Below, piece after piece: positions 2,201-62,845 of a DNA stretch of 64,000 nt (within the stretch, counting starts at the first letter, position 1; the number at the start of each line of letters is the position of its first letter). The position numbers and the translations under genes are program-made. The notes below the pieces were generated by a model. It was not told the origin of the DNA. It ran no database searches and worked only from the letters and a program-made list of their open reading frames with translations. The DNA is from Chrysophaeum taylorii (Eukaryota > Sar > Pelagophyceae > Pelagomonadales > Pelagomonadaceae): NCBI GenBank assembly GCA_029834535.1, contig JAQMWT010000052.1, forward strand, positions 1 to 64,000. The letters are read 5' to 3'.

Positions 2201-2269
2201 GAGTGGAATGGGGGCGGAAAGATAATTTTGGTAGAAGGGTGGATGGGGCCGAGGTGGGTATTGGACCGA

Positions 2270-6905: not shown

Positions 6906-7260
6906 AAACAAGTGCAGGCCAGTAAGTTCGCCAGTAAGTTCACCTGGTCCCAATCTCTAACCCCAGTAAGTTCACCTGGTCCCAGTAAGTTCACCTAGTC
7001 CCAATCTCTAACCCCAGTAAGTTCGGCGTAAGCCCACTCGTGCTCACATCCACTCACCCCACTCTCCTTCGAGCTCGTCGCTCTCACCTCCGCCAATCTA
7101 AGCTGCTTTGATCCGCACACGCCGCTAGCCCTTGCGTTCACTCTAAAAACCCCAGTAAGTTCACTTGGTCCCAGTAAGTTCACCTGGTCACTTAGTTCAC
7201 CTAGTCCCAATCTCAAACCTCAGTAAGTTCACGTGGTCCCAGTAAGTTCACCTACCGTGC
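6906..7260. repeat. Subterminal repeat field, unit CCAGTAAGTTCACCTGGTCC
   Basis: Nine copies of AGTAAGTTC plus degenerate ones are embedded in CCAG...CTGG surroundings that can form short hairpins, alternating with CCCAATCTCTAACCCC. A second field is at 48070-48440 and a two-unit copy at 62275-62335. They mark one end of the Helitron-like element. Confidence 0.8.
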
Positions 7261-7916
7261 GCGTGTAGACGCCGGGAGGGGGCTTATCGGTATTGCGCAG
7301 CACGTGTGGGGTAGGGTGGAGTCGTCGACCCAGATGAGTATATCTCCTCGGGGTTGCCGATCGACAGAGAGCCACGTAGAGCTGGACGTGGCAGAAGACG
7401 GGCTTGGGAAAGAGGACGCCGACCTCGCGGGGCGTCTGGCCCTGGCTCTTGGTGATCGTTTGGCGTCGGCGGGCCTTACGGGATACAGGTTGGAGGAGCC
7501 TCGGTGACAACGACACGATCGATCATGTATCTGGTACCGTTGCAGTGGCCGTGCGACGGGTCGAGGTTGCGAAGACATTAAGCTCGCGATCAAAGTCAGC
7601 ATGCCGTTGGTTGTCAGGGAGTTGAAAACTCTACTGTAAAGAGCGAGGCGTCGTCTTCCGACCCAACCTAGTCTGCCTAAAAGAACTCCGACGCCTCGTC
7701 TCCGGGAAAAAAAGGCCGCGGTCATGCGCGCGTTGTCCGCATCGACAACATCGTTTCGACGGCGCGTGAGAATGGCGCGCTGAAAGCGCCGCCGCGGGTC
7801 GTGGAAATAGTCTGCGAGGTCGCCGTAGACGGCTTGGAGGATCACTGTCTGGCTCTCGCGCCTACCTGATCCTTACTCTCGCGCCAACCTGATCCTTACC
7901 CTAAATCGAGGGACAA

Positions 7917-11641: not shown

Positions 11642-12500
11642 TGGAGCCTCCCCGAGTCGCTTCTTCTTCGAAAGGAAGCTTCATCGACGTGGGCTGCTGC
11701 TTTATCGACGTTGGTGAGCTCTGATCGATGATCTCTCTTGGCCCATCGAGCACGCCCCAAACGTTTGAGTGGCCGCGACGACCGATGGCGGCCAACGTCG
11801 GGGGGTGATTCGATCGAGTGACGCAGTGGTCCCCAAGAAAATCAAGCCAACGACGCCTACCCCCATACCTTTGTCAACGAGAGGGGCCGAATAAAGTGCG
11901 CAGCTGATACTTTAGAGCTAAAAACAGGAGTCGGCGTCATTCGACTCGCTACCACCCGCGGTTGCTCATCAAAGGAAGCTGGGAATGCGCCTCCAAGCAA
12001 TGTCGTGCTCGTGTCTCTACGTCAACTTCACCGTGTTCTTCATTACACTGTCTTCTTTGAAATCATTGCGCCGCCCGAGACATGCCCAAGCCATCTACCA
12101 TCCATTGAACTGGAACATAAGCCGCACTCGCTCACACTACCTTTCACACTTTTTGATTGTTAGTACCACGTCTTCACGTATGGTTTTTGAGCCTGCGGAC
12201 AAGCCTACGACTTAAAACGTAAGTTGTTAGCACACATCATTCTAGATTTCCTTCGAACCCCGCGTTGATTTTATCATGCCGGACAATGATTCGCCTCAAT
12301 TTCGATGACTATGTGCTACAGAGTGATATTTGCGCACTGGAGTATATCACTCTCGTCACGAGTAAAAATCCAGCACTTTTGTCAACAATCTACGTCTTCG
12401 CTCATCTGGTGTATTTGCGGTCACCAGCAACATGACTTGGCGACGGTTTATGCATTTTACTCTACCGACTTGGACCATCTCTTTCTTTTTCTGTTTTAAG
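10764..12500. other. Intergenic, with Helitron-like repeat debris
   Basis: At about 10860-11110 are repeated units such as CTAACCTTTGAGTTTACTC and ACCCAGAGTTAGTTAC, related to sequence inside the Helitron-like fragments (7090-7150, 48250-48310) and at 32740-32815. There is a TCG run near 11262-11280 and a GACA microsatellite at 11603-11641. I find no supported gene. Confidence 0.5.
11603..11641. repeat. (GACA)n microsatellite
   Basis: Eight or nine perfect GACA units, the same repeat as at the ends of the two Helitron-like copies. Confidence 0.95.
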
Positions 12501-12539
12501 GTTTCTAGGAACGTGACGAAGGGGAGGAGAGGATGACCT

Positions 12540-12884
12540 ACTCTGGTCTAAGCACCATCTCATATTGTAGCTTTCCTCTGGTGAGATTAGGTGAAGATGG
12601 TTGATAAAGGCCGGGAGAGATTCAAATAATAATACTGTAGGGAAACGGTGGCGTAACATGCGCACAAGCGTATCATCAGACTCAACAACAACTTTTACAT
12701 TGATATCTAAGCCTAGGTCAAGTGGCTTGAGACAGGAACGCTTGGGGTTGATAAACCAGAACTGAGTAACATGACAGAAGGTTTGCGAAGATTAGGCTCT
12801 TGTGAGAGAAACACTGGGCGAGAAAGCCATTCATGTTAATGGCGGAGTGTTTTGTTGGACAAACTTGTTCTGTTTCCGAAGATT
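12540..12884 (-). pseudogene. Cytosine-C5 methyltransferase N-terminal fragment, copy A
   Basis: Motif I (VMLLSSGLST, near 12748-12777) is followed, after a frameshift, by LGLDINVKVVVESDDTLVRM (about 12645-12715) and LRHRFPTVLLFESL. This corresponds to motif I, the acidic cofactor-binding motif II (VxxVESD) and the R-H-x-F-P helix of C5-type DNA methyltransferases. The fragment ends near 12540 by truncation of the element. It preserves uninterrupted sequence at the place where copy B carries a 153-bp insertion. Confidence 0.65.
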
Positions 12885-13816
12885 AAGGACCATAGGACGA
12901 ATCCACGGGCGATCTGGTAAAACTCTCTTGAGGAGGTAGTTGTAATATGCCAGTAGATCCCTGTTTTCATGGTATCGCTTGAGCGGAAATGCGAGGGAGC
13001 GTAGTTCGAGTTGCTTGTCGCGAGCGATGTTGTAGGTGAGACTGGGGAGAGCAGGTAAATTAGCTGCTACGTAGTGTATGGGAATACTCACATCTTTGTC
13101 TATGCGGCTTGTGACAGCGCTGAGCTTTGGCTCAGATCGATCATTGAACACAGTGGTCAGATTCGTCTGGTTCCACTCGAGCATGCTCAGGATAGCGAGA
13201 TGTCGATTGTGCACTGGCTGAAGACATAAAGCGAAGTCAATCTTGACGTAGCCAACTTGTGGATGATCTGGTAGGGGGACATTTATATTACGTGTTAGCA
13301 TTATATGTGAGGCACGTTGTTGTCCAGTGGCAGTTCGTATGATAATCGGCGCGCGTATTTGGAATCCAGTGGAATAATATGGTTTGGTATTGCAAAATCG
13401 TATGTGGACATCTATGATATGGTAGCACAAGAGCCAAAATATAAAAAGGGACCATGTTGGGGGACACAGTTTACCTTCATATATTTCGTTAGAAGAGCAT
13501 TTTCCGAATGCGGGCAAGTAGTGGAGAGGCTGGCATGAAGAAATTCTCCAGAAATAACAGATGAGTTGGAATGATAATCGGTTGAACAGGTGGTGATGGT
13601 TCGTCAGCCTCATCAGCCATGCCGTGCTTCTCATCACATGATGATAGCGAGGTCTGATCGACATCCCTAGTGGTTTCGGCTTGTGGTGGTTGGTTGATGG
13701 CTGATTGGACCTGTGAAGATAGCGAGGACAGTAACGCTGGTGGTAAAGCCGAGATGGCGGAAGCAGTAAAGAAGTTAGGCACAATATCGGAGGGATTACC
13801 CTGTGTGTTGGAGGCA
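12885..13816 (-). pseudogene. Conserved segment between gag and methyltransferase, copy A
   Basis: After a Pro/Ser-rich linker (about 13500-13870 in one frame) the frame ending at 12831 holds a folded-looking block: GYVKIDFALCLQPVHNRHL, then DKDVSIPIHYV, LPALPSL, LELRSLAFPLKRYHENRD and LNLRKQNKF. The last 85 or so residues are strongly conserved in copy B (55550-55810). The first part has the beta-rich look of a retropepsin, but no D-S/T-G triad is visible. I do not recognise the conserved block; it may be an N-terminal domain of the methyltransferase. Confidence 0.5.
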
Positions 13817-15531
13817 TCCTTGGTATCTGTAGTAGGAGGAGTTGCCTTTGGGGTGGGAGCCAGTAGCAACGGTATGATGTTGTGGCTCCACGTAGTTTAA
13901 CGACTTTTCGGTCGAGGATAGATGAACGTCTACATCATAAATGATGTCTTCTGCGAACATGAGTTGTTCGTTTAGGCGAAGTAAGTCACTATTGTCCTCA
14001 GTAGATGTCGTTGACAGAATATCAGCGGATTGCAATAGAGTCTCAAATAACTTGGTGATGTTCTGTTGTAGCTGAGCCGTGGTATCATTATCTGTCACAT
14101 GCTTCGTAAGTTCACTACACTGCTCTTGCAGCTTATTTAAGGTGTGCTTCGTTCGATCTAATAATTTCATGTTAGATCGAGAGGACCTGTCAAAAGTGCG
14201 GGGGTAAATTGGGCGATCATGGGACTGTCCAGCAGTTTTCTTCGTGACATATGAATCACCAGAACGATAATAGGATAGGTCGCTGCGAGAGAAAGGCTGG
14301 CGAGCATCGTTAGAGTTACGCAAGCGTCTAGCGTTAAACGTGGAAGATGTTCCAGATTGAGCAGAAGTAATGGACGCGAGTGTGTTTGCAGTTTGAGTCA
14401 GACTTTTGTCTGATAAATCCAACGTGTTCGTAAGTAGTAATTTTGGCTTTGGTTGAGGTGTTAATCCTTCGACGTAGGGTTGCCAAGAAACAGGGCGTTC
14501 TAAGCGTCTTTTGTTCGACCCATTTGATACTACATTATATAAGTCTAATGCGTATTCTAAGATATAGCTAGGGTTGGTAGGGTGACACAATCGTTCAGCG
14601 TCTGGCACAGGCCGAGATGAAGATCGAGTTTCATACATATAACACCAATCTACCCAACCACGATCGTAACGATTGTTGCTGGTATTATCGGCATAATGCC
14701 GATGTATCTCTTCATAAATTTTTCTACAAAGAGTACCAAAGTCGAATTGAAGATCAGTCTCTTCCTGGTTAAGTTGGTAAGAGATTTGCCTAAATGCTAG
14801 GGCAGCTTCAATAAAGACATGGACATACCAGTTAGGATTATAAACAACAGAGTTGAACTGCAAGTAGGACACATCAGTAGTCGTAACAGACTCGTAGTGA
14901 CTAAAGGCAATGAGCATAATGGCTCGAGCCTTGTTGGGTAAATAACTTTTGTTATACACCTCATTGATGGCGGGCCAGGCCGCAAGTGCTGGTTTTCCAA
15001 CACTTTCAAGATTGAAGTAAGTATGCAAGAATGTAGCAAACGTGTTCTGATAAGTGTGCCAGTCAGCAGCAGTTAACGAAAACATAGTAACAGGGGCATG
15101 AACACGGGTGTCAAAAGCTAATGCTTTCGGGTGCGCGCGATTTAAGATTCGTTCATCTTCTAAGAAACGAGGATTGATTTCAGGGGGTAATGCCTCGACT
15201 TTATAGTCGTAACAGACAGTAGCTAGCTGAACTACTTCTGCGTCAGGCAAGTTGGGGAAAGCTTCATTGGTGAAGTGCCATTCCTGATACTCAGGGGGCA
15301 ATTCATCAACAGCTAAACGGAGATCAGCAGCCCTATCGGTCTTCCATTCCAGGAAGGCGCGATCGAGAATTTGATTCCGGAGGATAGTATGTCCGCACCT
15401 GTGATCGTCTTGGGTGCGGCTCGTGCTGCGTGTTCTGCCGTAGCAGGTGACGGGGAACCAGGGGGTTCAGTCACGCAGTTGACACTGTCTAGACATTCTA
15501 AGGGGGTCTGTCTATCGGTATCTATGTACAC
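13817..15531 (-). pseudogene. gag-like protein of the methyltransferase retroelement, copy A
   Basis: The start (AARAAPKTITGADIL, near 15460) matches the start of gag in copy B (MAERAARAAPKAVTDADIL). A long open frame then reads PPEYQEWHFTNEAFPNLPDAEV and continues for about 500 residues, ending in a Ser/Thr/Pro-rich tail with STEKSLNY at 13892-13913. Several blocks (RAIMLIAF, ADNTSNNRYDRGWVDWC, FNARRLRNSNDARQPFS) are conserved in copy B, which supports past selection on the protein. A frame break near 15310 separates the first 50 or so residues. There is no zinc knuckle. Gag identity is inferred from position after the LTR. Confidence 0.65.
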
Positions 15532-15929: not shown

Positions 15930-16120
15930 AGAACCATACGAGAAAGGCTAAGTGTATAGTGCGACATACCTCGGGACGCGCTAGACCATGATGATGAGCT
16001 TGAGCACAACAAATCAGAGGACTAATTGACTGCGTAAAAAAGGAAGAAGAAGGGTAAGGAAGAGATCACGTTCTCAACGGACAGATCTAAGGGTAAGAGG
16101 CAGCAGATTTTTCTCTGCAG
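15930..16120 (-). repeat. 5' LTR-like end of copy A
   Basis: On the minus strand it begins TGCAGAGAAAAATCTGCT, just as the repeats at 52300 and 62079 do, and shares with them AGTCAATTAGTCCTCTGAT and GGTCTAGCGCG. The TG start is consistent with an LTR edge. The other edge is not well defined. Confidence 0.7.
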
Positions 16121-33143: not shown

Positions 33144-35947
33144 GTACACACTAAGGTCCACCAGCTTTCGGGGGGTGGAGGCACCTGGAGGGGGACCGCC
33201 TCGTACTCGATGATGGGCGAAAGGTGCCGGAGGTGGTACTCGATACGTCGCTTCTGTCGGGGGTGCGGGATAGGGCCCCGCTTGCTCGCGAACAGCGGGG
33301 GAAGCCCCGCGCGCTGTTCGATCTGAAGCCCAACGGCTCGGACGGTAGCTTCGAGCGTCGTCCGCTGAGCCTCGTGGCGCGCACGCAGCGAGACGACTCG
33401 GGCGGCGAGGGGCTCCTCGGTTTTCACCACCTTTCGTCTCGGAGCCGCTTCTCTCTCCACCTCGGCTCGGGCCTCGTGGAGGGGTCGTTCGAGCGCCGCT
33501 CGGACTTGCTCGAGTTCGACGCGCGCCGCGCGTGCCTGGGCCTGCGCCTCCGCGACCTCGTGGCTTCGCACCAACGCGAGCTCGTAGTTGTGATGCTCGA
33601 GCTCGGCGTGAGCTGACTCGAGCTGGCATCGCGTCCCGCGAAGCTCCGCCCGTATGCAAGCGAGTGCCGTGCGGTTCGCACCCTGGGCCTTTACGAGTTC
33701 GCCTCGCATTTCAGCCAACTCATCAGCTTGGAGCTCCGCATCCGTTTTCTGGTTGCGAAGTGTCGAGAGCTCGGCGCGCGCGTCCTCGAGCTCGCCTCTA
33801 ACCTCAATCAGCTCGGCTCGTGCGTCCTCGAGCTCAGATTTTTGGCCGGGAAGCAGCTGCTCCTGCGCTTCGAGGCCTGCGTTGAGCTTCGTGTTGTCGC
33901 GGAGTAGTGCGATCTCGGCGCGCGCGTCCTCGAGCTCGCCTCTAACCTCAATCAGCTCGGCTCGTGCATCCTCGAGCTCAGATTTTTGGCCGGGAAGCAG
34001 CTGCTCCTGCGCCTCGAGGCCTGCGTTGAGCTTCGTGTTGTCGCGGAGTAGTGCGAGCTCGGCGCGCGCGTCCTCGAGCTCGCCTCTAACCTCAATCAGC
34101 TCGGCTCGTGCATCCTCGAGCTCAGATTTTTGGCCGGGAAGCAGCTGCTCCTGCGCCTCGAGGCCTGCGTTGAGCTTCGTGTTGTCGCGGAGTAGTGCGA
34201 GCTCGGCGCGCGCGTCCTCGAGCTCGCCTCTAACCTCAATCAGCTCGGCTCGTGCATCCTCGAGCTCAGATTTTTGGCCGGGAAGCAGCTGCTCCTGCGC
34301 CTCGAGGCCTGCGTTGAGCTTCGTGTTGTCGCGGAGTAGTGCGAGCTCGGCGCGCGCGTCCTCGAGCTCGCCTCTAACCTCAATCAGCTCGGCTCGTGCA
34401 TCCTCGAGCTCAGATTTTTGGCCGGGAAGCAGCTGCTCCTGCGCCTCGAGGCCTGCGTTGAGCTTCGTGTTGTCGCGGAGTAGTGCGAGCTCGGCGCGCG
34501 CGTCCTCGAGCTCGCCTCTAACCTCAATCAGCTCGGCTCGTGCTTCCTCGAGCTCCGATCGAAGCAGCTCTTGCGCCTCGAGGCCCGCTTCGAGCTTCGT
34601 GTTATCGCGGAGCAGAGCGAGCTCGGCGCACGCGTCCTCGAGTTCGCCCTTTACTTCAACCAGCTCAGCTCGTACGTCCTCGAGATCCGATGCGTTCCCT
34701 CGGAGCATCGCGAGCTCTTGCTCCTTGAAGACCGCATTGAGTTGCTCGTGTTCGCGGTAAATCGCGAGCTCGGCGCGCGCCTTCTGGAGCTCGTCATCGA
34801 GCTCGGAGTGCGAAGACTCCCGGTCGCGGAGCGTGACACGTGCCTTCTGGAGCTCGCCGCGCACCTCGGTAAGTTCTGCTTGGAGTTTTGACGCAGTGCC
34901 TCGGAGGTCCTCGAGCTCGGCGCGATCGCAGGTTTCGGCGCTCTCGGGCTTCAAGGCGGTGGGGTCCTTTGGATCGCGGAGCATTGCAAGTTCGGCACGC
35001 GCCTCTTCTTCGAGCTCGCCGCGCATCTTCGTCATTTGTGCGTCGTCGGGCTCAGATCCGCGCTCCTCTCCCACTTCCTCTCGACGACGACGACGACGAC
35101 GGAGCAGCGTTTCCAGCTCCGCGCGCTGGAGCTCGGCGCGCATCTCAACGAACGCAGCATCCTGATCGCAGAGCGCCTCCTCGAGGTTGCCCATCGGCTC
35201 AGCGTTGGATTCTTCGTGATCGACGGCACGCGTCTTCTCGAGGTCTTCACCAGCCGCGGGTATCTCGCCACCCAGCTCGTCGCGCTCGCGGTAAATCGCG
35301 AGCTCGGCGCGCGCCTGCTGGAGCTCGCCGCGCATTTCGAGGAGCTCCTTCTGCGCGAAGGCGAGGTTCTCAAGCTTGGCACGCGCCTGTCCCAGGTCGG
35401 ATCGGACCCCGTTGAGGTCGTGGCGGAGTCTAGACTCGTCGCGTTTGGCGCGGCCGAGGTCGTCGACCGCGGCGCGGAGTTCCGCTTCGCGCTTGGCGGC
35501 CTTCTCCTTGAGCTTTGAGGCGCGTTTGAGCGCTTCTCGCGCGATGCCCTTGGCCTTGTCGACCTCGAGCTGGGCGATGGCAAGCTTTCGCTTGACGACG
35601 GAATGGGCGCGACCGCGCTCTGCCGCCTCATTTTTGAGCGAGCTCAGGCGGTCCTCGTACGCCGCGCGCACAGCCGCCACCTTCGTCCCGGCCTCCAACT
35701 TGGCCGCCGAGGCCTTGTGGTGCGCTTCGGCCTCAACCAACGCCTTCTCGAGGCCCTCGAGCGGCGAGGCGGTGTGGGCTTCCTCGAGCTCGGCAACCTG
35801 CTCCGTCAACTCCTGGACGCGCCGCGCGAGCTTTACCCTCTCGGCCTCGACACACTCGAGCTCCATCTCGTACTTGGCCCGCACCGCCGGGAACACGACG
35901 GCGACGCCTTCTTCTTCTTCTTCTTCTTTGGCTTCGTCGCGCATCAT
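33140..35947 (-). CDS. Large coiled-coil protein with 48-residue tandem repeats
   Basis: A 935-residue protein that is almost entirely coiled coil, rich in Glu, Arg, Ala and Leu. The centre consists of near-identical 48-residue units (LLPGQKSELEDARAELIEVR, then GELEDARAELALLRDNTKLN and AGLEAQEQ), about five perfect units with degenerate flanks. The C-terminal 100 residues are basic and less repetitive (PHPRQKRRIEYHLRHLSPII). Such proteins act as scaffolds or tethers (golgin-, rootletin- or tropomyosin-like), but none is recognisable. The long Ser/Ala-rich plus-strand frame opposite is a by-product of the repeats. Confidence 0.75.
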   Translation of the reverse strand: MMRDEAKEEEEEEGVAVVFPAVRAKYEMELECVEAERVKLARRVQELTEQVAELEEAHTASPLEGLEKALVEAEAHHKASAAKLEAGTKVAAVRAAYEDRLSSLKNEAAERGRAHSVVKRKLAIAQLEVDKAKGIAREALKRASKLKEKAAKREAELRAAVDDLGRAKRDESRLRHDLNGVRSDLGQARAKLENLAFAQKELLEMRGELQQARAELAIYRERDELGGEIPAAGEDLEKTRAVDHEESNAEPMGNLEEALCDQDAAFVEMRAELQRAELETLLRRRRRRREEVGEERGSEPDDAQMTKMRGELEEEARAELAMLRDPKDPTALKPESAETCDRAELEDLRGTASKLQAELTEVRGELQKARVTLRDRESSHSELDDELQKARAELAIYREHEQLNAVFKEQELAMLRGNASDLEDVRAELVEVKGELEDACAELALLRDNTKLEAGLEAQELLRSELEEARAELIEVRGELEDARAELALLRDNTKLNAGLEAQEQLLPGQKSELEDARAELIEVRGELEDARAELALLRDNTKLNAGLEAQEQLLPGQKSELEDARAELIEVRGELEDARAELALLRDNTKLNAGLEAQEQLLPGQKSELEDARAELIEVRGELEDARAELALLRDNTKLNAGLEAQEQLLPGQKSELEDARAELIEVRGELEDARAEIALLRDNTKLNAGLEAQEQLLPGQKSELEDARAELIEVRGELEDARAELSTLRNQKTDAELQADELAEMRGELVKAQGANRTALACIRAELRGTRCQLESAHAELEHHNYELALVRSHEVAEAQAQARAARVELEQVRAALERPLHEARAEVEREAAPRRKVVKTEEPLAARVVSLRARHEAQRTTLEATVRAVGLQIEQRAGLPPLFASKRGPIPHPRQKRRIEYHLRHLSPIIEYEAVPLQVPPPPESWWTLVCT
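33783..34546. repeat. 144-bp tandem repeat, about five units
   Basis: The word GAGCTCAGATTTTTGGCC recurs at 33830, 33974, 34118 and at the same 144-bp step twice more. Units differ by only a few bases, so expansion is recent. The period is an exact multiple of 3 and the coiled-coil frame is kept. Confidence 0.9.
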
Positions 35948-42892: not shown

Positions 42893-43286
42893 ACTGCTAA
42901 CTAACTAACTAACTAACTTCAGACCTCTCCCGAGCATGGGAGCCAGGCCGGACCGGCAGGGGCCGGTACGGAATCACAGAGGAAAATCACGCAGTTGGGG
43001 CAGGGCGACGGACGAGGACGGGCTTGTTGATGGTGGACCGCCAATGCGCGCGGTCTTGTGCGAGGTCGTGCAAAAGCGTCGCAGGCCGCAGACATGTTGG
43101 TCCACGAGCAATCGACCTGTCCGTCGCGTTCTGCCCAACCGAGCGAACCCCATCCAAGCGCGGACTTTCCGGGTGCTAACCGGCCAGCCCGGGAGGCGAG
43201 CAGGCACCGTCTCACTCCGGGGCGGCCGGGGCCGCCGCAGGGAGCAAGCGTGTTAGGCGTCGTTCTCCATCGCAACCAACGGTTAG
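42893..43286 (-). repeat. SINE-like retroposon with (TTAG)n tail, copy 1
   Basis: On the minus strand it starts ATCGCTAACCG, runs about 390 bp and ends GGTCTGAAGTTAGTTAGTTAG. A full-length relative is at 62460-62845, and two 5'-shortened copies with the same 3' end and tail are at 54133-54208 and 55920-56072. A common 3' end, variable 5' truncation and a simple-repeat tail are the hallmark of target-primed reverse transcription. It contains a strong GC hairpin (CCGGACCGGC...GCCGG) near the tail. No clear Pol III A/B boxes, so it may be the 3' end of a LINE. Confidence 0.7.
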
Positions 43287-48069: not shown

Positions 48070-49073
48070 TAACAAGTGCAGGCCAGTAAGTTCACCTAGT
48101 CCCAATCTCTAACCCCAGCATTTTCACCCCATTAAGTTCACCTAGTCCCAATCTCTAACCCCAGTAAATTCGGCGTAAACCCAATCTCTATAGTTCGGCG
48201 TAAACCCACTCGTGCTCACATCCATTCTCCTTTGAACTCGTCGCCGTCACCCCCGCCAATCTAAGCTGCTTTTATCCGCACACGCCGCTAACCTTTGAGT
48301 TTACTCTAAAAACCCCAGTAAGTTCACTTGGTCTCAGTAAGTTCGCCTGGTCACTAATTTCACCTAGTCCCAATCTCTAACCTCCGTAAGTTCACCTGGT
48401 TCCAGTAAGTTCACCTGGTCCCAGTAAGTTCACTTACAGTGCGCGTGTAGACGCCGGGAGGGGGCTTATCGGTATTGCGCAGCACGTGTGGGGTAGGGTG
48501 GAGTCGTCGACTCAGAAGAGGATATCCTCGGGGTTGCCGATCGACAGAGAGCCACGTAGAGCTGGACGTGGCAGAAGACGGGCTTCGCCAAGAGGACGCC
48601 GACCTTGCGGGGCGTCTGGCCCTGGCTCTTGGTGATCGTTTGGCGTCGGCGGGCCTTACGGGATACAGGTTGGAGGAGCCTCGGTGACAACGACACGATC
48701 GATCATGTATCTGGTACCGTTGCAGTGGCCGTGCGACGGGTCGAGGTTGCGAAGACTTTAAGCTCGCGATCAAAGTCAGTATGCCGTTGGTTGTCAGTGA
48801 GTTCAAAACTCGACTCTTGAGAGCGAGGCGTCGTCTTCCGACCCAACCTAGTCGGCCGAAAAGAACTCCGACGCCTCGTCTCCGGGAAAAAAAGGCCGCG
48901 GTCATGCGCGCGTTGTCAGCATCGACAACATCGTTTCGACGGGGCGTGAGAATGGCGCGCTGAAAGAGCCGCCGCGGGTCGTGGAAATAGTCTGCGAGGT
49001 CGCCGTAGACGGCTTGGAGGATCAATGTGTGGCTCGCGGGCCCACATGATCCTTACCCTAAATCGAGGGACAA

Positions 49074-52297: not shown

Positions 52298-52495
52298 CTG
52301 CAGAGAAAAAAATCTGCTAACTCCTACCCTTATTCCGTCCGTTGAGAACGCGATCTCTTCCTTGCTCTTCTCCTTCCTTTCTACACAGTCAATTAGTCCT
52401 CTGATCTGTGCTCACGCTCATCATCGTATGGTCTAGCGCGCCCCGCAGGTACGTGGTAATTACATGTTACACTGATGTGTTGCTATGTATCGTCT
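52298..52495 (+). repeat. 5' LTR-like repeat of copy B
   Basis: Begins TGCAGAGAAA after a flanking AC and matches 62079-62257 and the right end of copy A. It contains AGTCAATTAGTCCTCTGATC and TACATGTTACACTGATGTG. Similarity between the two repeats of copy B stops after TGTATCGT. Confidence 0.75.
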
Positions 52496-53141
52496 GTCGT
52501 GTGCCGAGGCTAGGGGGACCACTGCCTGGGTTCCCTGAAACCTACCTTTGCCTCAGACTCACGCGGTGAGACGGGATGGTCTCTCAGTGATCTAACCACT
52601 GCCTAGCGGAATACTCTGCAGGTTATGGGCCCAGCGGGGTCCTGAGGGATCATGTGTTGCATGCACGTTTACCATTGGGTTTTGGATCGTTACCGCGCCG
52701 ATCTAGCCTCGCCATGCAACACAATTGTTTGTATACGCTATAACATGGGTTAGTACATGGCTACATCGCACACGTTAAGACTGCGTACCCCCTGTGTGCT
52801 TGTTTATAGTATCGTATTGTCGTGAAAGTGTCAGTGTGTGTGTAGTCTGTACAAGTCCTGTATTGGTTGCACGCGCGCTTGGAATATTTTGGGTATGTCC
52901 ACCTTTTGGATGCTCCACGATAGTACACAACATGCCGCTCTCTGAGCACCCCCTTACCAACTGCCTGTTCAGTGTATGCCCCTTTAACACTGGCAGGAAC
53001 CACAGTTTGCACAGTTGCCACATAGGCGCTTCCATTGTTTACCTGATGAGTGTACATAGACACCGCTAGACAGACCCCCTTAGAATGTCTAGCTGTGTCA
53101 ACTCTTTTATGACTGAACTATAAGTTCACGTCACCGGCTTC
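52496..53141 (+). other. Leader of copy B between LTR and gag
   Basis: Non-coding but conserved with copy A in several blocks (for example CTCTGCAGGTTATGGGCCCA and AGACAGACCCCCTTAGAATG). Conservation of an untranslated leader suggests packaging or promoter function. Confidence 0.6.
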
Positions 53142-55470
53142 ATGGCGGAACGAGCAGCAAGAGCCGCACCCAAGGCAGTCACTGATGCGGATATTTTGAA
53201 ATTAGAAGCTCCTGTTGTTGAGTACCTCAATGATGGGAACCGATTTCAAATCCAAAGCCGCAAGGTCTCACTTCAAGTGAGACATACTAGGCAATTACTG
53301 CGTTTACACCACGCAGGAGCCCTCTTCGAGTTCGACTCGTACGAGGCTTATACGAGGTCCTGCCCTGACTACGAAGTCAAGCGCAATAGGATTCTCGACC
53401 GGGTCTTCCGGGCCTGGCAACACGCCAGAGTGGAGGAATTCAACCTCCCAGATGTTGAAGATTTGCCTCCTGAATATCAGAGCTGGCACTTCACATCTGA
53501 GGCGTTCCCTAACTTACCTGACCTTGAAGTTGCACAGTTGGCCACTGTCTGCTATAATAATGAGGTCAAAGCCCTTCGCCTGAACGGGAGCTCGATCGCC
53601 AGCATCCTCGTGAACTTGCCTTTGAAGCAAGAATTAACGCTCCAGTGTCCACCTTTGCCCTTTCACATGCCGATTGGCAAACATACCAATCTACCTATGC
53701 CACCTTTTTATATACCTTCTTTAACCACGAAAGTGTGGGTAAACCCGCTCTTGCGGCCTGGCCAGCCATTACCGAGGTATACAATCGGCATTACCACCCT
53801 AATAAAACTCGAGCTATCATGCTCATTGCCTTTAACCTCTACGAAACAGTCTCTAGTAATGACGTTTCGTATCTAAAACAGTAACTACACGCTGTTGTGT
53901 ATAATTGGTGTGTACATGTTGTTCATTAAATGTGTGCATTTTTTCAAGCACCTCCTGTTTCAAATCAACTGTTGGACACCCACGTTTTCAAACTTGACCT
54001 CACGCGGAACTCTTTCCCACATATGTTTCCGACCGAAATGTCGTTGAACTATGGGCCAGAACGTTTTACTGAGTCTGGACCCAGTGCTATTCTTCCTACT
54101 GATGCCAATGGCCGGCGTTCCTTATGCACAGGCCCGTGATTCCGGACTGGCTCCTGTCGGTCCGGCCTGGCTCCCAACCTCGGGAGAGGTCTGAAGTTAG
54201 TTAGTTATACTGCCGAGTCGGTAAACTTTACTGAAGCTACCCTTGCCCAGCTTTCTCAGGAGCAGCTAAAATGAACTATCCTCTGACAACACAAGCAACA
54301 ATCGCTACGATAGAGGATGGGTCGACTGGTGCCTCATCTACGAGACACGCACTTCCACTAGAGCACAACCCGAAACTAACAGGCAATGTCATCTTTCTGA
54401 CTCTTCAGCTATTCTTGAGTACGCACTGGACCTCTACAACTCAGTGTCCAATACTACAAGCGATAAAAGACGTCTTGAACCGCCAGTCTCTTGGATCCCT
54501 TACGTAGAAGGATTGTCCACACATCAAAAACCCAAATTACTGCTAACCCAACTGCTGGACTCTACAGACACTGAACTGGCGCACACAGCACATGTATTTG
54601 CGTCACTTACCAATTCAGCCAATGGACAACAGTCGAAACCCGCGTTTAACGCACGACGCCTACGTAACTCAAAAGACGCTAGCCAGCCCTTCTCTTCCAA
54701 TGATCTTAGCTACTACCGGTCTGGTGACTCCTATGTCACCAGAGCTCGCAGTCCTGATCAATCTAACGATCGACCTGTGTATGCTCGCACCTTTGACAGA
54801 CCTTCTCGATCGGATATGAAATTGTTAGATCGCACTAAGCATACTATGCATGCTCTCAAAGATCAATTCCGCGAACTTTCCAAATATGCCAACCAAAGGG
54901 CCACTACGTCTCAGCTGCAAGATAAGATTACATAGCTATTTGAAACGCTGTTGCAATCTGCCGATATTATTGCCACTACGTCTAACCCAGACGATAATAC
55001 AGACTTGCTCCGCTTAAATGATCAACTTTCCTATGCCGAAGATATCGTTCGGAATGTTGATATACATCTGCTTTCGACCGCAACGTCGTTAAACTATGGG
55101 GGAGACCAACCTACTGTGTCTGCACCCAACTCCTCTACCCCATCGAACACAAGTGGCATCAGCTCTTCACCGTCCACTGCTAACGCGGAATCAGTCAATT
55201 TTACTGCTGAATTGTCACCTGAGCAGCTGACTGAGCTCTCGTCACATGCCACTGCAGCTATGTGCCGTAAGAGCTCCGATCAAGCAGCGACCAATACCAC
55301 ATTATCGAGTAACCCACAAAACCTCTCACCATTCGATCTTAACAACGATCTCGGCAAGGACAACGGCGAACCTACCGCGCCTGTCGTCCCCATTACCTTT
55401 TTTACAAGTTGTGGTCACCTCAAAACTACTTCCTCAAACCAGTGCAGGGTCGACACTTGTTTATCCTAAG
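53142..55470 (+). pseudogene. gag-like protein of copy B (broken)
   Basis: Starts MAERAARAAPKAVTDADILK and runs in one frame to about 53560 (QVRHTRQLLRLHHAGALFEF, PPEYQSWHFTSEAFPNLPDL), then shifts frame. At about 54031-54270 an extra segment interrupts it: a second copy of the TEMSLNY linker plus a SINE-like piece. After that the homology to copy A resumes (DNTSNNRYDRGWVDW, FNARRLRNSKDASQPFSSND) through to STATSLNY (55076-55097) and a Ser/Thr/Pro-rich linker. No zinc knuckle. Confidence 0.65.
54133..54208 (+). repeat. SINE-like retroposon, 5'-truncated copy
   Basis: About 76 bp ending GGTCTGAAGTTAGTTAGTTA, the shared 3' end of the (TTAG)n-tailed family. It is inserted within the duplicated linker of gag in copy B. 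Confidence 0.7.
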
Positions 55471-55549
55471 TGCCCCCGAGCGGAACAAGGCTCAGCTAAC
55501 TGTCACTCTCAATGACTGTGAACAACCAAACATGTCGCACCTCACTAGC

Positions 55550-55815
55550 TTACTTGATAAAGACGTGCACGTGCCCATTCACTACGTAGACCACGACCTC
55601 CCGGCACTACCGTGTCTACCCTACACACTTGCACGCGACAGGAACCTTGAGCTACGTTCACTATCCTTTCCGCTGAAGAGGTACAACGAAAACCGGGACC
55701 TTTGTCACTATTACAATTACTTGGCCACCAAGCTCAAAACTCGACGGTGGCTGCGCACTCTACTTCTCAACCTTCGGAAGCAGAATGAATATGTTGTGAA
55801 CAATACTCCACCAAT
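55550..55815 (+). pseudogene. Conserved block before the methyltransferase, copy B
   Basis: DKDVHVPIHYVDHDLPALPC, then LELRSLSFPLKRYNENRD and LLLNLRKQNEYV, aligned over some 85 residues with copy A. It is better conserved than the rest of the element. Unknown; by position it may be an N-terminal domain of the methyltransferase. Confidence 0.55.
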
Positions 55816-55869
55816 ACTCCACTTCTCGCGTGACTGCGCACTCGCCCAGCATTCTTATCGACTACCAAC

Positions 55870-57445
55870 AATGGTTCTCGCAAACCACCGGTCATGCTAT
55901 TATGTTCTGGATTGTCAACTAGCTAACTAACTAACTAACTTCAGACCTCTCCCGAGCATGGGAGCCAGGCCGGACCGGCAGGAGCCGGTGCGGAATCACA
56001 GAGGAAAATCACGCAGTTGGGGCCGAGGCGAGGGACGAGGACGGACTTGTTGATGGTGGACCGTCACTGCGCTTTTCTGTCACAAGCCTCACATGACTTG
56101 GGCTTAAACATCGATGTTGTGATTGCTGTTGAGTCCGACGAAGCTCTTGTGCGCATGTGACGATTCCCAAATGCTATTACCTTTCAATCTCTTCCTTCTT
56201 TCCTCAATCATCTCCATACCATTTCTGAAGAAGAAACACGGATCCTAAGTTGTGACATCGTTGAGCTTACACCCTATATTATCAGCAAATCATCTGCATG
56301 CTACCATCCTTCGTGTCTATGTCCTTCCTTTTGACTTACGGCCACTGCTGCGACCGAAGCCTCGTTAAACTACCCGCCAACGGCACCTACTGCCTCGGCA
56401 CAAGTTACAACTCCGTGCAGCAATCGCTATCTGCTCAAGAACACCAAAAAACATCAGGCTTGGTCAGTTTGCTCGACGACTCCATCTTTGACAGTATGTT
56501 TTCTGTCATCAAACTACGGAAACCTAGTCCTACTTGCGGAGATGACACCCCCTCACAAGTGTATCCTCAGGGATCACATCTCCGTGGCTAACCTCATTCA
56601 CGCCACACTGGACTACACCGCTGACGTAGTCGACCGCTTCCCTACCTATCTGTGCGGCGATTACCAATCTCGGGAACGATGGATCTGCATTGCTCGCAGG
56701 TACAACACTGGACCCGCGGACATCCTGTCCTGGCCGAACCAGTACCCGAAGCGTTCCTTGGACATAGCAGACGACATTAATTCGGTGCCTAAAACCCTCT
56801 GGCTCTCCAAGACTCTATCTCAAGGCTGGGTTCGCACTTACCCAGATCCACCACTGGTTCAATCTCCCAAGACGTTTCCTTTGTACTCTCGCACTGATTC
56901 CGTTCGGTTAAGCTTCTAAGAGCCTGAGAAGAACCTACTCTTTCTCAGGCTTCATTCACAGCAGGCTTTCGAACAACATACCACAAAACGCACTCGGAGT
57001 TTTCCTATCATCACCTTGGTTTCAAGAGATCCTCTAACCAACCACTACCTGGATCTTCAAATCCTATCCGCCTCAAGGCATTCGTCACTCTATACAATTT
57101 TGTTCACCAGAATCACGCCGAACAACCCTAGGTTATTTCTTAAAACTTCCTCATCTACCTTCAAGATCCACACCCTTACCCGTGGACACCACTCTGACGG
57201 CAACTTACTAGTTGAGAACAAAGCGAGCGAATATCAGGCTTCCATTGACGCATATGGATCTACTTACACCCTAACCGCCAGCAATAACCCAGCCGATAAG
57301 ACGCTCTATCTCGACTCGTTTCAGGGATATTTATGGCTAGTGCAAGCCTACCACCCCCCTGTCAACACAGCCCACGGTACGCTTCCTGCCATCCGCAATC
57401 TGCTCCATCAGTGCGCCCTTGTCATGCCCAACTGTGTTGTTTATA
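55870..57445 (+). pseudogene. Cytosine-C5 DNA methyltransferase (decayed)
   Basis: Recognisable family motifs in the right order: motif I VMLLCSGLS (55891-55917), motif II GLNIDVVIAVESDEALVRM (56101-56157), DIVELTP near 56262 at the place of motif IV, DDSIFDSMFSVIKLRKP near 56475, motif VIII DYQSRERWICIARR (56659-56700), motif IX YTLTASNNPADKTLYLD (57262-57312) and motif X IRNLLHQCALVMPNC (about 57390-57435). The catalytic Pro-Cys is not intact. A SINE-like insertion (55920-56072), a stop after motif II and frameshifts inactivate it. The 'LGLDID...ESDEAL' wording is closest in style to DNMT3-type enzymes, but assignment to a subfamily needs alignment. C5 methyltransferases methylate cytosine in DNA with SAM. 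Confidence 0.72.
55920..56072 (-). repeat. SINE-like retroposon inside the methyltransferase
   Basis: 153 bp in minus orientation with its (TTAG)n tail at the left end (GCTAACTAACTAACTAACTTC). Copy A has uninterrupted sequence at the same place, so this is an insertion between motifs I and II. Confidence 0.8.
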
Positions 57446-59200
57446 ACCAACCCTCCGATCGACTATTACCAAGTCAGAGACTTTGCCTTGGAAGATTACC
57501 ATCTCCTTCATGCCCGATATATTGGCTACTTACGCGGCAGTGACCGCAAGCTTGGATCCTAAATCCATTCCATGCTAGCTTCACTGCCTACCATACGGGG
57601 ATATGCAAGTATGATCTTGCTGGACCCGCTCAATAACAAACTCCGTTACCCTACTCGCTCTTATCAGAGCCAACACTCATACCCGTTCCCAGGCAACCTT
57701 CTTACTTGCACTGAGGAAAGACTTATGCTGCGACCTTCTCAGCTATGCGTTGCCTGCAGGCACTTACCATACTCTGTACATACACATCCACCGTATAGTT
57801 GTTGATATGAAGTCACTTGTGTTGGACCCCTCCTTTCAACACGGTATTGCCACTTTGAAGAAGACCCATGTGTCTACCTTCCTAACTCGTGAACTATCTC
57901 TTTCCAGTCACAGTTTAGACACTATCTCTCGGGCAGCTGCATTCATGACTTACATCACCAACCGCAGCTGGACCGAAATGTCGTTAAACTACCATTCTTC
58001 AGGAAATCCACTTGAAGAAGCACTCTCTACAAGCATAACTACTGCGGATGGTGACTCCAACGACGACGCTGACGCTCCCTTCTTAGATGCCCCCACGGAG
58101 CTCAAATTCAACGTTCGTAGGAAGCGACATATCCCTGTCAAGGCAAATCCTCGTAAATCGCTCGCCCATGGCATAGTTGAATACCAAAATGCCAAACAAA
58201 GAGCTAGCCGCTTCCACAACATACACCACTGCCCTGACGTCATTGCTCTCCCTGGTTTCTCAGCATCCGATATTCCCTACAGAGATACGTGCATAGATGC
58301 ATTTGCCACAACAACAAACGTCACCGTAACGACCAAGAGAACGAGACCAAGCCCAACTTTGAACAGACCCACCGGCTAGGTGAAGTCTGGGCTTGCGATG
58401 GTGGCTACGTCACTGTTCCTTCCGAATGAAGCGGCTTCACCCACGTTATTGCCTTCAAAGAACTGCTATCAAAGTTCCTACTAGCCTATTCTACGCACAC
58501 TACCAACGCGACCGAATTCACGCAAGCTAGATTACTTACATGCCTTTTGCAAGACACAACTCAATGTGCATCTACGCACAGTATACTCCGACGCGTTCCG
58601 GCCGTACTTCAACCAATATATCATTACTCCCTATCGGGTAGATAAAGACATCAACCATTGTTGCTCTCCCGCCTTCTCTTCACCAAGTTTTAACTACGAA
58701 GTCGAACAAAGTATAGGTTATATTGTTTCTGCCTCTTCAACTCGCCTCCGTAACCTTCTCAATGCTCATTATCGTGGTGTCAGGATCGTGGAACCTGCAA
58801 TCCACTTTCCGCGGGCTGCAGCCCTCACCATTCATCATAAAACATTCTCCCCAATGCCTCGTCCGAACACATTCACCATGCCATCATCAGTCCACAACAT
58901 TTTTTTTTATATAATCAGCTAACAACACCTCAACATGATCAGCTCAAAATCTTTGGCAGTGAGTGCTTCCTCCTACTTGAGCCTCACGAGCACCACAAAC
59001 ACGAACCGTCTCGCCGGCGCTATCTATACCTGTGCTGCGCTCACTCCCAAAACCCGCTTCTCTCACCTCACGTTGACCATCAAGCTGATGTTGTCCTTAA
59101 TCCCGAAAATAGCCAGCTCCGTGTTTCCTCCAAGCTGACCTTCACCTATATGATCCAACGCTCCACCCTGGATCCTGAACATACTCTTCCACCTGATGCT
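57446..59200 (+). pseudogene. Copia-type pre-integrase and integrase, copy B
   Basis: After the methyltransferase come short frames of unknown role (LEDYHLLHARYIGYL near 57500; FQHGIATLKKTHVSTFLTRE near 57840). The integrase region follows: HHCPDVIALPGFSASDIPYR, then GEVWACDGGYV (first catalytic Asp) and SGFTHVIAFKELLSKFLLAY, with TNATEF at about 58510. Further on KIFGSECFLLLEPHEHHKHE and SRRRYLYL match the copia integrase C-terminal stretch. Frames are broken repeatedly. The aspartic protease was not found. Confidence 0.55.
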
Positions 59201-59659
59201 CCGCCTGTGTCCTTCGACGTTAGCCCTCATCGAGACGAGGACCCCGATGATGCGTTGCAGAGGGGGGTTCATACTCAGAGGGGACACTCACCTGCCCCTG
59301 CTCCGTCTGCTTCTCCAGCTCCGTCGCAGACTCCGCCTCCATTCTCTTTTTCCCCCACAGCAGCTTGACGACCCGCTGACGACAATACTCCTGCTGACGC
59401 TCCTATTACGCCACCGCCCTCAAGACAACCTTCAACTTGTCTCGGGTACTAAGCGCCCCGACCGGCGCAAAGCCTCCTCCAAGACTTCTGTCAATCTGAA
59501 TTTACCGCCGGCGACCGAAAGTGTCGTTAAACTACCTGCCAGCAGCATCCACTGCCCTGGCACCAGCTACTGCTTCTCCCTCAGACCTTGAAATCTTATC
59601 ACCCCATGTGACTCGGCTTGCACAGCAGGTTAAGACGCTCCATATGTCACGTGACCTTC

Positions 59660-60142
59660 TCACCTGACGCCTTTTATTCCTTGACTACTATCGTCTCGTA
59701 ATCTACCCTCGAAGCTGAGTTCAGTACACTACGTATTTGTGTTGACGAAGCAGTCTGGCTCCGCAAACTCCTCTTCGAGCTCTCGTTTTTGGTTAATCCA
59801 ACATTCTACATTATCACGCAAGCTGATCCTCCCTCCGATTTTTATGCAGACAACAATCCTATTGCCGAGAACATGCGCTTCATCAGAAGCCTATCTCTCT
59901 TGTCTGACAACGCTGCTGCCGTGCACAACCCCTATAATCCCAACGGCTCGTCGTGCAGCAAAGCCCTTTCTACACGATGGTTCAAAACTCGCGTGTGTGT
60001 CGCATTACAGAATATTCGCGCCCATCATGTCCCTGGCAAGTTAAATGTAGCTTATGGTTTTACAACGCCACTTTCAGCCGACTTTGCTACGTTTCGCTCT
60101 CTTCTAGGTATGCCGCGTGTTACTGACTTAGTCCAATACTAG
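59660..60142 (+). pseudogene. Copia-type RNase H, copy B
   Basis: STLEAEFSTLRICVDEAVWL, then RKLLFELSF is the conserved start of copia RNase H (S-T-A-E-A-E-Y...EAIWLRRLL). It continues DFYADNNPIAENM and SLLSDNAAAVHN, the latter like the catalytic D-N-x-x-A strand, and finally HHVPGKLNVAYGFTTPLSAD (compare V-P-T-x-x-x-x-A-D). The frame is largely open from 59789 to 60142. RNase H degrades RNA during reverse transcription; reverse transcriptase itself is missing upstream. Confidence 0.65.
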
Positions 60143-62078
60143 ACTTAACCCCTAACTCTGGTGACCGCAATGTCGCTAAACTAGTCCTTCTGTTTATCAC
60201 CAATACCTCTTTCTTTCCCTGATAAGATCACTGATTCTCCTTCAGTCAGCATGGTGAACAGTACTACTCTCGCAGACACTCCACGTACTCAGCAACACTG
60301 GATCTGCTATCTAAATTTCCAATCTAACTTTCCGATCTCAAGCTCGCAGTTTGACATTTGGACTTTACCAACCAACCCAGCAACATACGATCCATATCCC
60401 TGTACACTCCCCTTTTGCATGTCTTCATCATCATCGGATAAAGATTACAGTATCATGTGAGTATTTCATCTTGATCCTAACACCATGACCAATAGCTTAC
60501 TACCGTGGCTACATTACCAACACCCAGTTGTCATGGTCACATGCAGTTTAATCTCCATTTGTACCCGTGCATCGCGTGCATGTAGACTCCTCTGATCACT
60601 ACACTTTACGGACTCACTGAACTCTCGTTGCTCTTCGAGTTGACAAAATACGCATGCCACGCTTTGACTTAGCTGCCTTCGCGCTCTCATTTCAACGTTT
60701 AACATCATGAACGAGTATTGCGGGTGACCTACCTACCTTCATCTGCGTGAGTCAGCATCTTGCAAAGCTACGGTTCGTCTTGTTCAGTGCACACTACTTA
60801 TGTATTATGTACACCATTATCGATCATGATCTACCTAACATACGACCATCCGAATACCACTGTTCGCCCTGTATAACTAACTATATGCATTGGCGGCTTC
60901 TTAGTACTTCTGATGCTTTGACATCTGATGACGCTATCACCAAACATCACAACAACAATTAATTCACTCGGCGCCCACTGCACACTATCAATCTTAAAGA
61001 GTCCACTTCACATTGGGTATCCTTACCGCCCAACATTACTTCCTAATGGCTAAATGCTCAGTGCTGGATAACGTATGGCTTACGGACACCACCCCAGTGG
61101 TACCGTATCGTCCACACTCATGGTCTACTATGTGCATGAGATGAACACCTTACTGTTTCACGATTACACCTCAGCTCGCTATACATTACCGACAATATCC
61201 GACTATGTGTCAGATCACGCTTCTTTGTTTCCTTCATGGTCTCAGATAGGATTCTTACAACACCCTCCTTGAGTCCAGGGTACATCGACATACTCATACT
61301 GGTCTTCAGTCTTCATTCTCTTTATCATCACGCCATATGTCTTCCTGGGCTTATCCTCTACCCATATAACGTCCAGGTTAGCAAGCTGCTGATGATTCTA
61401 CGACTGAACATGATATGCAATGTGTTTCTTCATGTGACCTCTGTAGTTTCACTTCTTTTTTGCTGTTCACTAACAGTTCACAAGTTTTTTTTTGTTTGGC
61501 GGCTCTCACTATGAGGACTACAACCTCTACCTTACTTACAAGTTTCATCTCTTTGACGTTGCATTATAATAAAACAACGACGCTGCATGGAACATGATGC
61601 TGATACTCAGGTTGAAGTCTTCCATCCTCGTCCTTAAACATCATCGACTTATGTCACAACACAACTCTGCCCGGAGCGTTAACCGCTACCCAACTCACAC
61701 GCTTAACGTGTTGATGTCTCTGCTCTCTGCTATATGTGAGATATAATGCTTCCGCGAAGAGCATCAATCATCCTTCTGAACCTGAAGATGATGACATTCC
61801 CGCCATATGTGAAGTGCAAAGGGGAACAAGCAATCTCCTCACCGTTATCATTAACTTCTGCCTCACACTCACATTCACTTCCATCTTTCAAAGTCTCCCG
61901 TGATAAAGGCATTCAGAGTGTTATCACCAAGTCCAAGCCGTGACACCTGTCTGCTGATGAACCTGTTGTGCCACTTAATATGACCTCGGAAGTGCACTTC
62001 TTGTTTATCCTGATCTCGTCCTCCATCACATGTCTCAAGAGATGTCATGTTCCTCAACCACAAGACATCTCGATTTGG
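60143..62078 (+). other. 3' region of copy B, non-coding
   Basis: About 1.9 kb of AT-rich, stop-filled sequence between RNase H and the right LTR. The sixth copy of the TEMSLNY-coding sequence is at 60163-60184, right after the RNase H stop. Short frames (for example 60251-60460, 60747-60962) show no domain. Confidence 0.5.
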
Positions 62079-62257
62079 TGCAGAGAAATCTGCTAACTCC
62101 GACCCTTATTGAGAACACGATCTCTTCCTTACCCTTTTCCGTCCTTTCTACACAGTCAATTAGTCCTCTGATCTGTGCTCGCGCTCATCATCATGGTCTA
62201 GCGCGTCCCGTAGGTACGTAGTAATTACATGTTACACTGATGTGTTGCTGTGTATCG
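62079..62257 (+). repeat. 3' LTR-like repeat of copy B
   Basis: Begins TGCAGAGAAATCTGCTAAC and matches 52298-52495 with several indels. It stops at TGTATCGT against the Helitron-like terminus, which may have truncated it. Confidence 0.75.
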
Positions 62258-62274
62258 TGCGGTAGCCCGGACCA

Positions 62275-62459: not shown

Positions 62460-62845
62460 ATCGCTAACCGTCAGGTTGTGATGGATTACGGCGCCTAACA
62501 CGCTTGCTCCCTGCGGCGGCCCCTGCCGTCCCGAAGTGAGACGGTGCCTGCTCACCTCCCGGGCTGGCCGGTTAGCACCCGGAAAGTCCGGGCCGGGATG
62601 GGGTTCGCTCGGTTGGGCAGAACGCGACGGACAGGTCGATTGTTCGTGGACCAATACGTCCGCGGCCTGCGACGCTCTTGCACGACCTCGCACAAGACCG
62701 CGCGCAGTGGCGGTCCGCCATCAACAAGTCCTCGTCCCTCGCCTCTGCCCCAACTGCGTGATTTTCCTCCGTGATACCGGACCGGCTCGTGTCCGGCCTG
62801 GCTCCCATGGTCTCGGTTGAGGTCTGAAGTTAGTTAGTTAGTTGA
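62460..62845 (+). repeat. SINE-like retroposon with (TTAG)n tail, copy 2
   Basis: Plus-strand, full-length relative of 42893-43286. Starts ATCGCTAACCG and ends GAGGTCTGAAGTTAGTTAGTTAG. The open frame across it in both copies is not conserved well enough to call a protein. Confidence 0.7.

Follow-up and report, generated by a model that had tools for sequence, protein, structure and literature searches.

Cytosine methylation is a tool with which hosts silence mobile DNA, and an element that carries a methylation writer of its own turns this arms race around, in the sense that such a parasite may mark its own DNA. According to the relevant passages of de Mendoza 2018 (PMC5890265), DNA methyltransferases (DNMTs) occur in LINE, DIRS and Gypsy elements, and it is proposed there that the retrotranscribed DNA is self-methylated. 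For instance, KnitGypsy-Dnmt3 of Klebsormidium nitens shows a Ka/Ks below 0.2, copies of SymbioDIRS-Dnmt3 are shown to methylate CG de novo, SymbioLINE-Dnmt is CG-depleted, and the abundant Copia elements of Symbiodinium are described, in the same passages, as being without any DNMT domain. Those earlier cases stem from dinoflagellates and a charophyte, whereas the case described here concerns a copia element in a stramenopile.

The organism is Chrysophaeum taylorii, which as a pelagophyte belongs to the stramenopiles. Its published assembly is given as 71 Mbp in 702 contigs, and the main text of the genome paper (PMC10366177), according to which native Nanopore or PacBio reads were made, contains neither 'transpos' nor 'repeat'. 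The genome that we searched comprises 70.8 Mb in 697 contigs, and the window, i.e. the whole stretch of 64,000 nucleotides that was analysed, lies on contig C52. It holds two decayed copies of a family of Ty1/copia LTR retrotransposons (family C) with a methyltransferase-like (MTase) domain in Gag-Pol, between the protease and the integrase; the order in the family is gag, protease, MTase, HxDG domain, integrase, reverse transcriptase and RNase H.

Two decayed copies in the window

The features of both copies, in part delineated with the open reading frames of a relative on contig C42 (L041), are the following.

52299-62258, plus strand: LTR element 1, 9,960 bp, decayed, bounded by direct repeats
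52299..52493, plus strand: 5' LTR of element 1, starts with TG, 86.7% identity to 62079-62258
53142..54494, plus strand: gag-like region, frame-broken; tblastn with the L041 gag ORF gives 61-70% identity in three pieces
54498..55702, plus strand: ORF2/protease region, frame-broken; tblastn with L041 ORF2 gives 48% and 58% identity
55834..57447, plus strand: C5-methyltransferase-like (MTase) region, running into the HxDG region (together pol residues 1-463, tblastn)
55885..55920, plus strand: first half of motif I, a motif-like stretch that agrees with LLCSGLST of relatives
55919..56072, plus strand: 154-bp repeat splitting motif I, 94% identity to 42897-43049
56074..56157, plus strand: remainder of motif I and motif II, a motif-like stretch
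56404..56418, plus strand: motif IV with the catalytic-type Pro-Cys; P100 and C101 invariant in the 12 rows of alignment A1
56524..56559, plus strand: motif VI (Glu); E142 the same in all 12 rows of A1
56656..56700, plus strand: motif VIII (QxRxR); Q184, R186 and R188 invariant in A1
57181..57201, plus strand: HHSDG motif, a motif-like stretch, in the domain between MTase and integrase
58379-58417, 58575-58610 and 58698-58724, plus strand: integrase catalytic stretches D, D and E, by eye
58841..59368, plus strand: ORF with SH3_retrovirus domain (Pfam E 1.2e-4, 22.3 bits, under the cut-off of 27)
59681..60127, plus strand: RNase H region; tblastn 67% to a 196-aa L041 frame, RNase H by eye
62079..62258, plus strand: 3' LTR of element 1, pairing with 52299-52493 at 86.7%
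12489..12826, minus strand: element 2, first part of the MTase region with motifs I and II; tblastn with pol residues 2-30 (83%) and 38-113 (70%), in two frames
12948..15495, minus strand: element 2, gag and ORF2, 67-91% to their L041 counterparts by tblastn
15964..16119, minus strand: LTR-like sequence of element 2, 79.6% identity to 62079-62219

A sequence-only reading of the window had placed the C5 methyltransferase motifs I, II, VIII, IX and X, in that order, between gag and a copia integrase, inside a 10-kb sequence bounded by direct repeats. The bounding repeats are indeed there. Of the motifs, I, II and VIII were recovered, IX and X could be placed only tentatively, and two that had gone unlisted, namely IV and VI, were found in between, motif I itself being split by the 154-bp repeat. 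When compared with the L041 frames by tblastn, the pol gene of element 1 is represented by residues 1-1129 at 55834-59434, in broken frames, and its first 463 residues match those of L041 with 42% identity (E 0.0 as printed), so that the match of the MTase region lies beyond chance. Residues 1130-1691 of the L041 pol match nothing in the window (tblastn, E 1e-4), i.e. the reverse transcriptase is missing, and the gap in which it would be expected extends from 59434 to 59681. With its broken frames and without a reverse transcriptase, this copy is dead.

Element 2 (16119-12489, minus strand) is a truncated relative of element 1, which ends at 12489, after motif II. As had been read from the sequence, it carries motifs I and II after gag; more precisely, the stretch 12826-12489 (minus strand), following gag and ORF2, matches the polyprotein in portions of its initial 113 residues.

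A significant match of the window copy to the methyltransferase profile PF00145, by which the earlier reading was to stand or fall, did not materialise: none of ten protein pieces from the window (nine ORFs and a 73-aa piece of 12555-12773) is matched by PF00145 in Pfam at E values up to 1, and relatives within the same family do no better than approach it. The case for a methyltransferase consequently rests on relatives.

The window contains further repeats. A sequence of about 150 bp is present, whole or in part, at four places (55919-56072, 42897-43049, 62702-62843 (inverted) and 54136-54207 (inverted)), and a direct repeat pair (7059-7641 and 48222-48821) lies 41 kb apart with 90-96% identity in three blocks. 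Another copia-type element, with gag_pre-integrs and SH3_retrovirus domains, occupies 3-2982 (minus strand); no methyltransferase match was found in the two of its frames that were scanned. Finally, 144-bp tandem repeats that are up to 100% identical are found at 33608-34793, within a coiled-coil-like frame of 936 aa on the minus strand.

A fixed and constrained part of the element

Used as a query against the genome, the 73-aa piece of element 2 yielded 589 first-look candidates, of which 150 were scored, all with E < 1e-22 and most with 86-96% identity over residues 18-68. Twelve further copies of family C were fetched from the 150, which gives 13 together with L041; alignment A1 comprises 12 of these 13, the copy in pieces (L047) being left out. 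L041 has frames of 401, 504 and 1,691 codons, and its longest frame encodes, in this order, the MTase motifs, the HHSDG region, an integrase core (rve, residues 784-866, E 0.0076, under cut-off), SH3_retrovirus (residues 968-1007, 5.6e-4, under cut-off) and a reverse transcriptase of the RVT_2 type (residues 1431-1651, Pfam 7.7e-42, 144 bits against a cut-off of 31.6). The integrase thus precedes the reverse transcriptase, which is the Ty1/copia order. The assignment to Ty1/copia draws on the RVT_2-type reverse transcriptase and the integrase order of L041 and on the LTR pair of element 1, as an LTR pair was not found within the 9.9 kb fetched for L041. The protease was assigned by eye in ORF2 of L041 (DSCAT), and Pfam gave no match for a protease in L041, nor any for its RNase H frame.

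The place of the domain within the element is nearly constant. At least 47 of the 150 scored MTase places are followed on the same strand, at 3.1-6.2 kb and mostly near 4.17 kb, by one of 150 scored RVT_2 matches; within this range of distances, none of the 150 MTase places has such a match upstream or on the opposite strand. Conversely, with a second MTase query and a reverse transcriptase query from the family (the union giving 192 MTase places), at least 76 of 150 copia reverse transcriptase places are preceded on the same strand by an MTase place at a distance of 2.5-7 kb, as compared to none on the wrong side and one on the wrong strand. These counts are lower bounds, for 150 places were scored each time from 589, 732, 1,391 and 1,670 candidates. 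The other 74 reverse transcriptase places are without an MTase place among the matches listed, which may reflect a lack of scoring, contig ends or true absence; 16 plus-strand reverse transcriptase places lie within the first 4.3 kb of a contig. The near-constant spacing, with no match on the wrong side or strand, implies that the MTase is a fixed part of many copies rather than a late passenger. Taken together, the L041 frame and this spacing bear out the initial proposal: in a copia-type lineage of a heterokont, a C5-methyltransferase-like domain sits between gag/protease on one side and the integrase on the other.

The sequence of the domain is conserved as well. The stretch from motif IV to VIII is free of stops in 140 of 150 scored matches (732 first-look candidates), which are 91-100% identical. 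In the case of the MTase core, the median dN/dS is 0.146 (range 0.096-0.365; 54 pairs of 11 of the 13 copies, L044 and L047 being out) at a median dS of 0.30, and in the case of the region following the MTase it is 0.227, with values up to 0.78 (9 copies). The copies were chosen for their long frames, a choice that favours constraint, although we do not think that it explains values so far below 1. The MTase core is under purifying selection.

Methyltransferase families and the nature of the domain

The search of the genome with PF00145 returned at least 124 matches (123 scored of 474 candidates), and 40 loci from the list (L001-L040) were inspected. One of these is DNMT2 (L001) and another (L002, C621:15462-18998) is the host DNMT5, matching the chain of a solved DNMT5 structure (7r76) at 3e-143; this chain was titled DNA repair protein Rad8 by its depositors. 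The next 18 loci (L003-L020) all show a single MTase sequence family, B, which passes the Pfam profile PF00145 (2.4e-8; L012 with 34.2 bits, cut-off 22). A DGGAS protease-like motif precedes the MTase in five of them (L006, L007, L012, L017 and L018), an HLDG region follows it wherever the frame reaches that far, and an integrase-like core was seen by eye in L054, downstream of L017. With L054 and L055, these loci form what looks like a second copia-like family with long frames, an assignment that rests on the integrase-like stretch after the MTase, as the reverse transcriptase was not reached. The median dN/dS of family B is 0.126 (8 copies; 9 of the 18 loci were entered and 8 passed the end markers).

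The third family, A, was recognised by eye, in two subfamilies, in the 18 loci inspected for it among the 20 loci L021-L040 (L022-L025 and L027-L040). It belongs to Ty3/gypsy elements, in which RVT_1, RNase H, H2C2 and rve follow the MTase (L028; partly in L023, L024, L031 and others). Family A passes the PF00145 gathering threshold (L037, 37.6 bits), positions 260-321 of the profile (motifs IX and X) being matched in L036, and its profile aligns with that of DNMT2 at 1.3e-10, a value reached by none of 100 shuffles. The dN/dS of 0.073 and 0.231 in its two subfamilies (7 and 4 copies; a long frame was present in 13 of the 20 loci, of which 11 entered the count) indicates purifying selection.

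For family C the similarity to methyltransferases is more remote. In the 12 members of A1, PF00145 was unlisted for 11 at E values up to 10 and gave E 0.022 for one. When residues 1-520 of the 1,691-aa frame served as a protein query, nothing was retrieved at E 0.001, and a 534-aa piece retrieved a single protist transcript (P0121, 40% identity), which PF00145 matches at 4.4e-4 and 20.2 bits, below the gathering cut-off of 22; since that score is not reached in family C, we call its domain methyltransferase-like. P0121 also matches phrog_116 (3e-8) and phrog_363 (7.4e-5), both named DNA methyltransferase, and phrog_116, which also ranks first among PHROGs for the host DNMT5 and for family B, is matched by 9 of the 12 members at E values up to 1 (best 0.0054). 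NCBIfam gave nothing for P0121 or L050. Aligned as profiles, family C (with P0121) and family B match at E 9.3e-5 and probability 58.9, with none of 100 shuffles as good; the match is weak when P0121 is left out (E 0.02, probability 2.3). The match to a canonical DNMT2 profile (96 sequences, after a length filter, of 120 listed, these being the best 120 of 936) is weak as well (E 0.0043, probability 8.0, one of 100 shuffles as good).

The A1 profile found nothing in the PDB at E 10, the A2 profile found no methyltransferase and one chance match, and P0121 found mostly chance ankyrin designs and one cytosine methyltransferase (3g7u) at E 0.49; a viral collection gave no confirmed relative of A1 or A2. 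A first predicted fold of the domain failed (pLDDT 34.6). A second fold reached a pLDDT of 63.0 with an alignment that included 39 of the 120 DNMT2 rows, so that its match to C5 methyltransferases is circular in part; Foldseek assigned it low TM-scores, the top match reaching 0.32 by query length.

At the level of motifs, none of the 12 rows of A1 departs from Pro-Cys in motif IV, Glu in motif VI or QxRxR in motif VIII; these motifs follow the canonical C5 order and stand in register with family B and DNMT2 in the profile alignments. The usual C5 methyltransferase has Gly-Gly in motif I; family C lacks it and is divergent there. Motif X is suggested by the DNMT2 alignment and by the guided fold and is tentative, and motif IX is proposed by eye, the alignment setting the motif IX of DNMT2 opposite a later stretch; no profile match covers either in family C. 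The case for homology of the domain comes from the PHROG match of P0121, the profile alignment with the Pfam-passing family B and the register of the motifs, and we consider it very probable that a homologous MTase domain is a functional part of the element.

Three other readings can be weighed against this body of evidence. That the likeness of the motifs is due to chance, or that the domain is a late passenger in an element without a methyltransferase, would be in line with the window pieces not matching PF00145, but is hardly credible given the spacing that is fixed over many copies, the single open frame, the selection, the PHROG matches and the shuffle-controlled profile link to family B. 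Alternatively, the domain could be a pseudoenzyme that has kept the fold but works within Pol as a structural or nucleic-acid-binding component, e.g. in the choice of integration sites; the divergent motif I and the scores below the Pfam cut-off agree with this, yet mere binding would not require the residues of motifs IV, VI and VIII that are invariant in all 12 rows, and we regard the idea as improbable. The third reading, an RNA methyltransferase that acts, like DNMT2, on the genomic RNA of the element or on its tRNA primer in the particle, derives some plausibility from the fact that C5-type methyltransferases include the tRNA enzyme DNMT2 (by the names of database matches), from the region after motif VIII, which in family C matches no known target-recognition domain, and from a passage of de Mendoza 2018 (PMC5890265) that leaves RNA methylation open for SymbioLINE. 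Nothing links family C to DNMT2 in particular, however, in view of the weak profile match mentioned above, and the PHROG families matched by P0121 are named DNA methyltransferase (their E-values are not comparable with those of the DNMT2 profile method); an RNA substrate seems rather unlikely to us.

A conserved domain with the motif HHSDG sits between the methyltransferase and the integrase in L041-L053 and in the window, and HLDG is found by eye at a similar place in family B. Scans of 12 members gave only weak single Pfam matches for this HxDG domain at E values up to 10. The program hhalign did not align HHSDG with HLDG, and its alignment of the post-MTase regions of B and C covered just 54 columns elsewhere (E 0.0066 and probability 5.8, without a shuffle control). 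A 2OG-oxygenase was considered for this domain; none of the 12 family C members gave such a Pfam match, and inspection by eye revealed no second metal-binding His shared by families B and C.

One shared capture for the gypsy (A) and copia (B, C) enzymes was considered and found to be without profile support, 10 of 40 shuffles being as good for A-B and 5 of 40 for A-C. This is absence of evidence and not proof of separate origin; at least two captures would be the simplest reading. A more far-reaching scheme would have copia and gypsy LTR elements each independently capturing a C5 methyltransferase that is kept under selection, a writer of their own being nearly required in a DNMT5 host, and would see in the copia HxDG domain a second, oxygenase-like enzyme that acts on the methylated base, which would turn Pol into a two-step DNA-modification cassette. 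We mention it as a long shot.

Possible role and comparison with known systems

As the enzyme is part of Pol, it would be packaged in the virus-like particle along with integrase and reverse transcriptase, where it may methylate cytosines in the cDNA of the element itself, either before integration or as it takes place. DNMT5 maintains methylation in other species, according to passages of PMC9998398, and in a DNMT5 host methylation introduced into the cDNA could persist once the copy is integrated. A new copy would thus arrive carrying a mark that the host DNMT5 pathway keeps, and such a pre-marked copy might be spared from being sensed as unmarked DNA and have its expression tuned. The explanation as a whole, i.e. 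an MTase in the copia Gag-Pol that is packaged and methylates its own cDNA, appears probable to us; that self-methylation of cDNA is the job of the domain is, taken for itself, a tentative proposal to which we give slightly less than even chances. Alternatively, the domain might slow the element or serve the host, in that self-methylation feeds new copies into silencing and limits damage, by which the lineage persists. De Mendoza 2018 lists this as one possibility (in passages of PMC5890265) and DNMT5 is present in the host, but the numbers of candidate places (589, 732 and 1,391, with 150 scored of each) and the 94-100% identity of the scored reverse transcriptase places to L041 suggest recent spread and not restraint, and we consider this alternative unlikely, if somewhat less so than a pseudoenzyme or an RNA substrate.

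The composition of the elements provides weak and not specific evidence of methylation. CpG is at 0.76-0.91 in family C and the window elements versus 1.28 in the window between elements, and TpG+CpA is at 1.15-1.19 versus 0.89. There is no depletion of CpG in the gypsy family (1.21), and family B has 1.00. In the copia stretch 1-3000, where no MTase was seen, CpG is 1.11 and TpG+CpA 1.23.

Retroelement-borne methyltransferases are already known from LINE, DIRS and Gypsy elements, judging from the passages cited, and what appears to be new is the combination of copia and stramenopile. In titles and abstract beginnings of the open-licence literature, no description was found of a stramenopile copia element with a C5 methyltransferase. 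A paper of 2025 (Mol Biol Evol, msaf176; PMC12344493) mentions a DNMT3 'LTR Copia' in one sentence and cites the 2018 paper for streptophytes and dinoflagellates; the 2018 passages cited name Gypsy, DIRS and LINE, for which reason 'LTR Copia' may be a slip, and the relevant passages of msaf176 give no architecture and no stramenopile case. The CoDi elements of diatoms (Maumus et al. 2009, PMC2806351) are likewise copia-type elements of a stramenopile host; judging from a literature search, the word 'methyltransferase' is absent from that paper. Sola1 of Ectocarpus is, in passages of PMC12477816, a stramenopile mobile element with a DNA methyltransferase as well; it differs in being a DNA transposon with a separate ParB-methyltransferase accessory gene, the predicted enzyme being an N4-cytosine or N6-adenine one.

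The systems of the 2018 study are closer, as far as its passages describe them. As in these, a methyltransferase (methyltransferase-like in the case of family C) is encoded here within the ORF of a retroelement and evolves under purifying selection. SymbioLINE-Dnmt and SymbioDIRS-Dnmt3 of Symbiodinium share with the present elements the conserved DNMT domains within retroelements and the hypothesis of self-methylation, and differ from them in class (LINE and DIRS, not copia). KnitGypsy-Dnmt3 resembles the present elements in being an LTR retrotransposon with a cytosine methyltransferase within the Pol ORF that is under purifying selection, and family A, in which Ty3/gypsy elements have their MTase ahead of the reverse transcriptase, belongs to this type. 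In contrast, family C is copia where KnitGypsy-Dnmt3 is Gypsy, with a DNMT class that is not assigned where the latter is of the DNMT3 type, and it does not reside in a charophyte host. With many near-identical copies and MTase-bearing gypsy elements next to them in a 71-Mb genome, the question why transposons methylate DNA can be asked here copy by copy, in native long reads.
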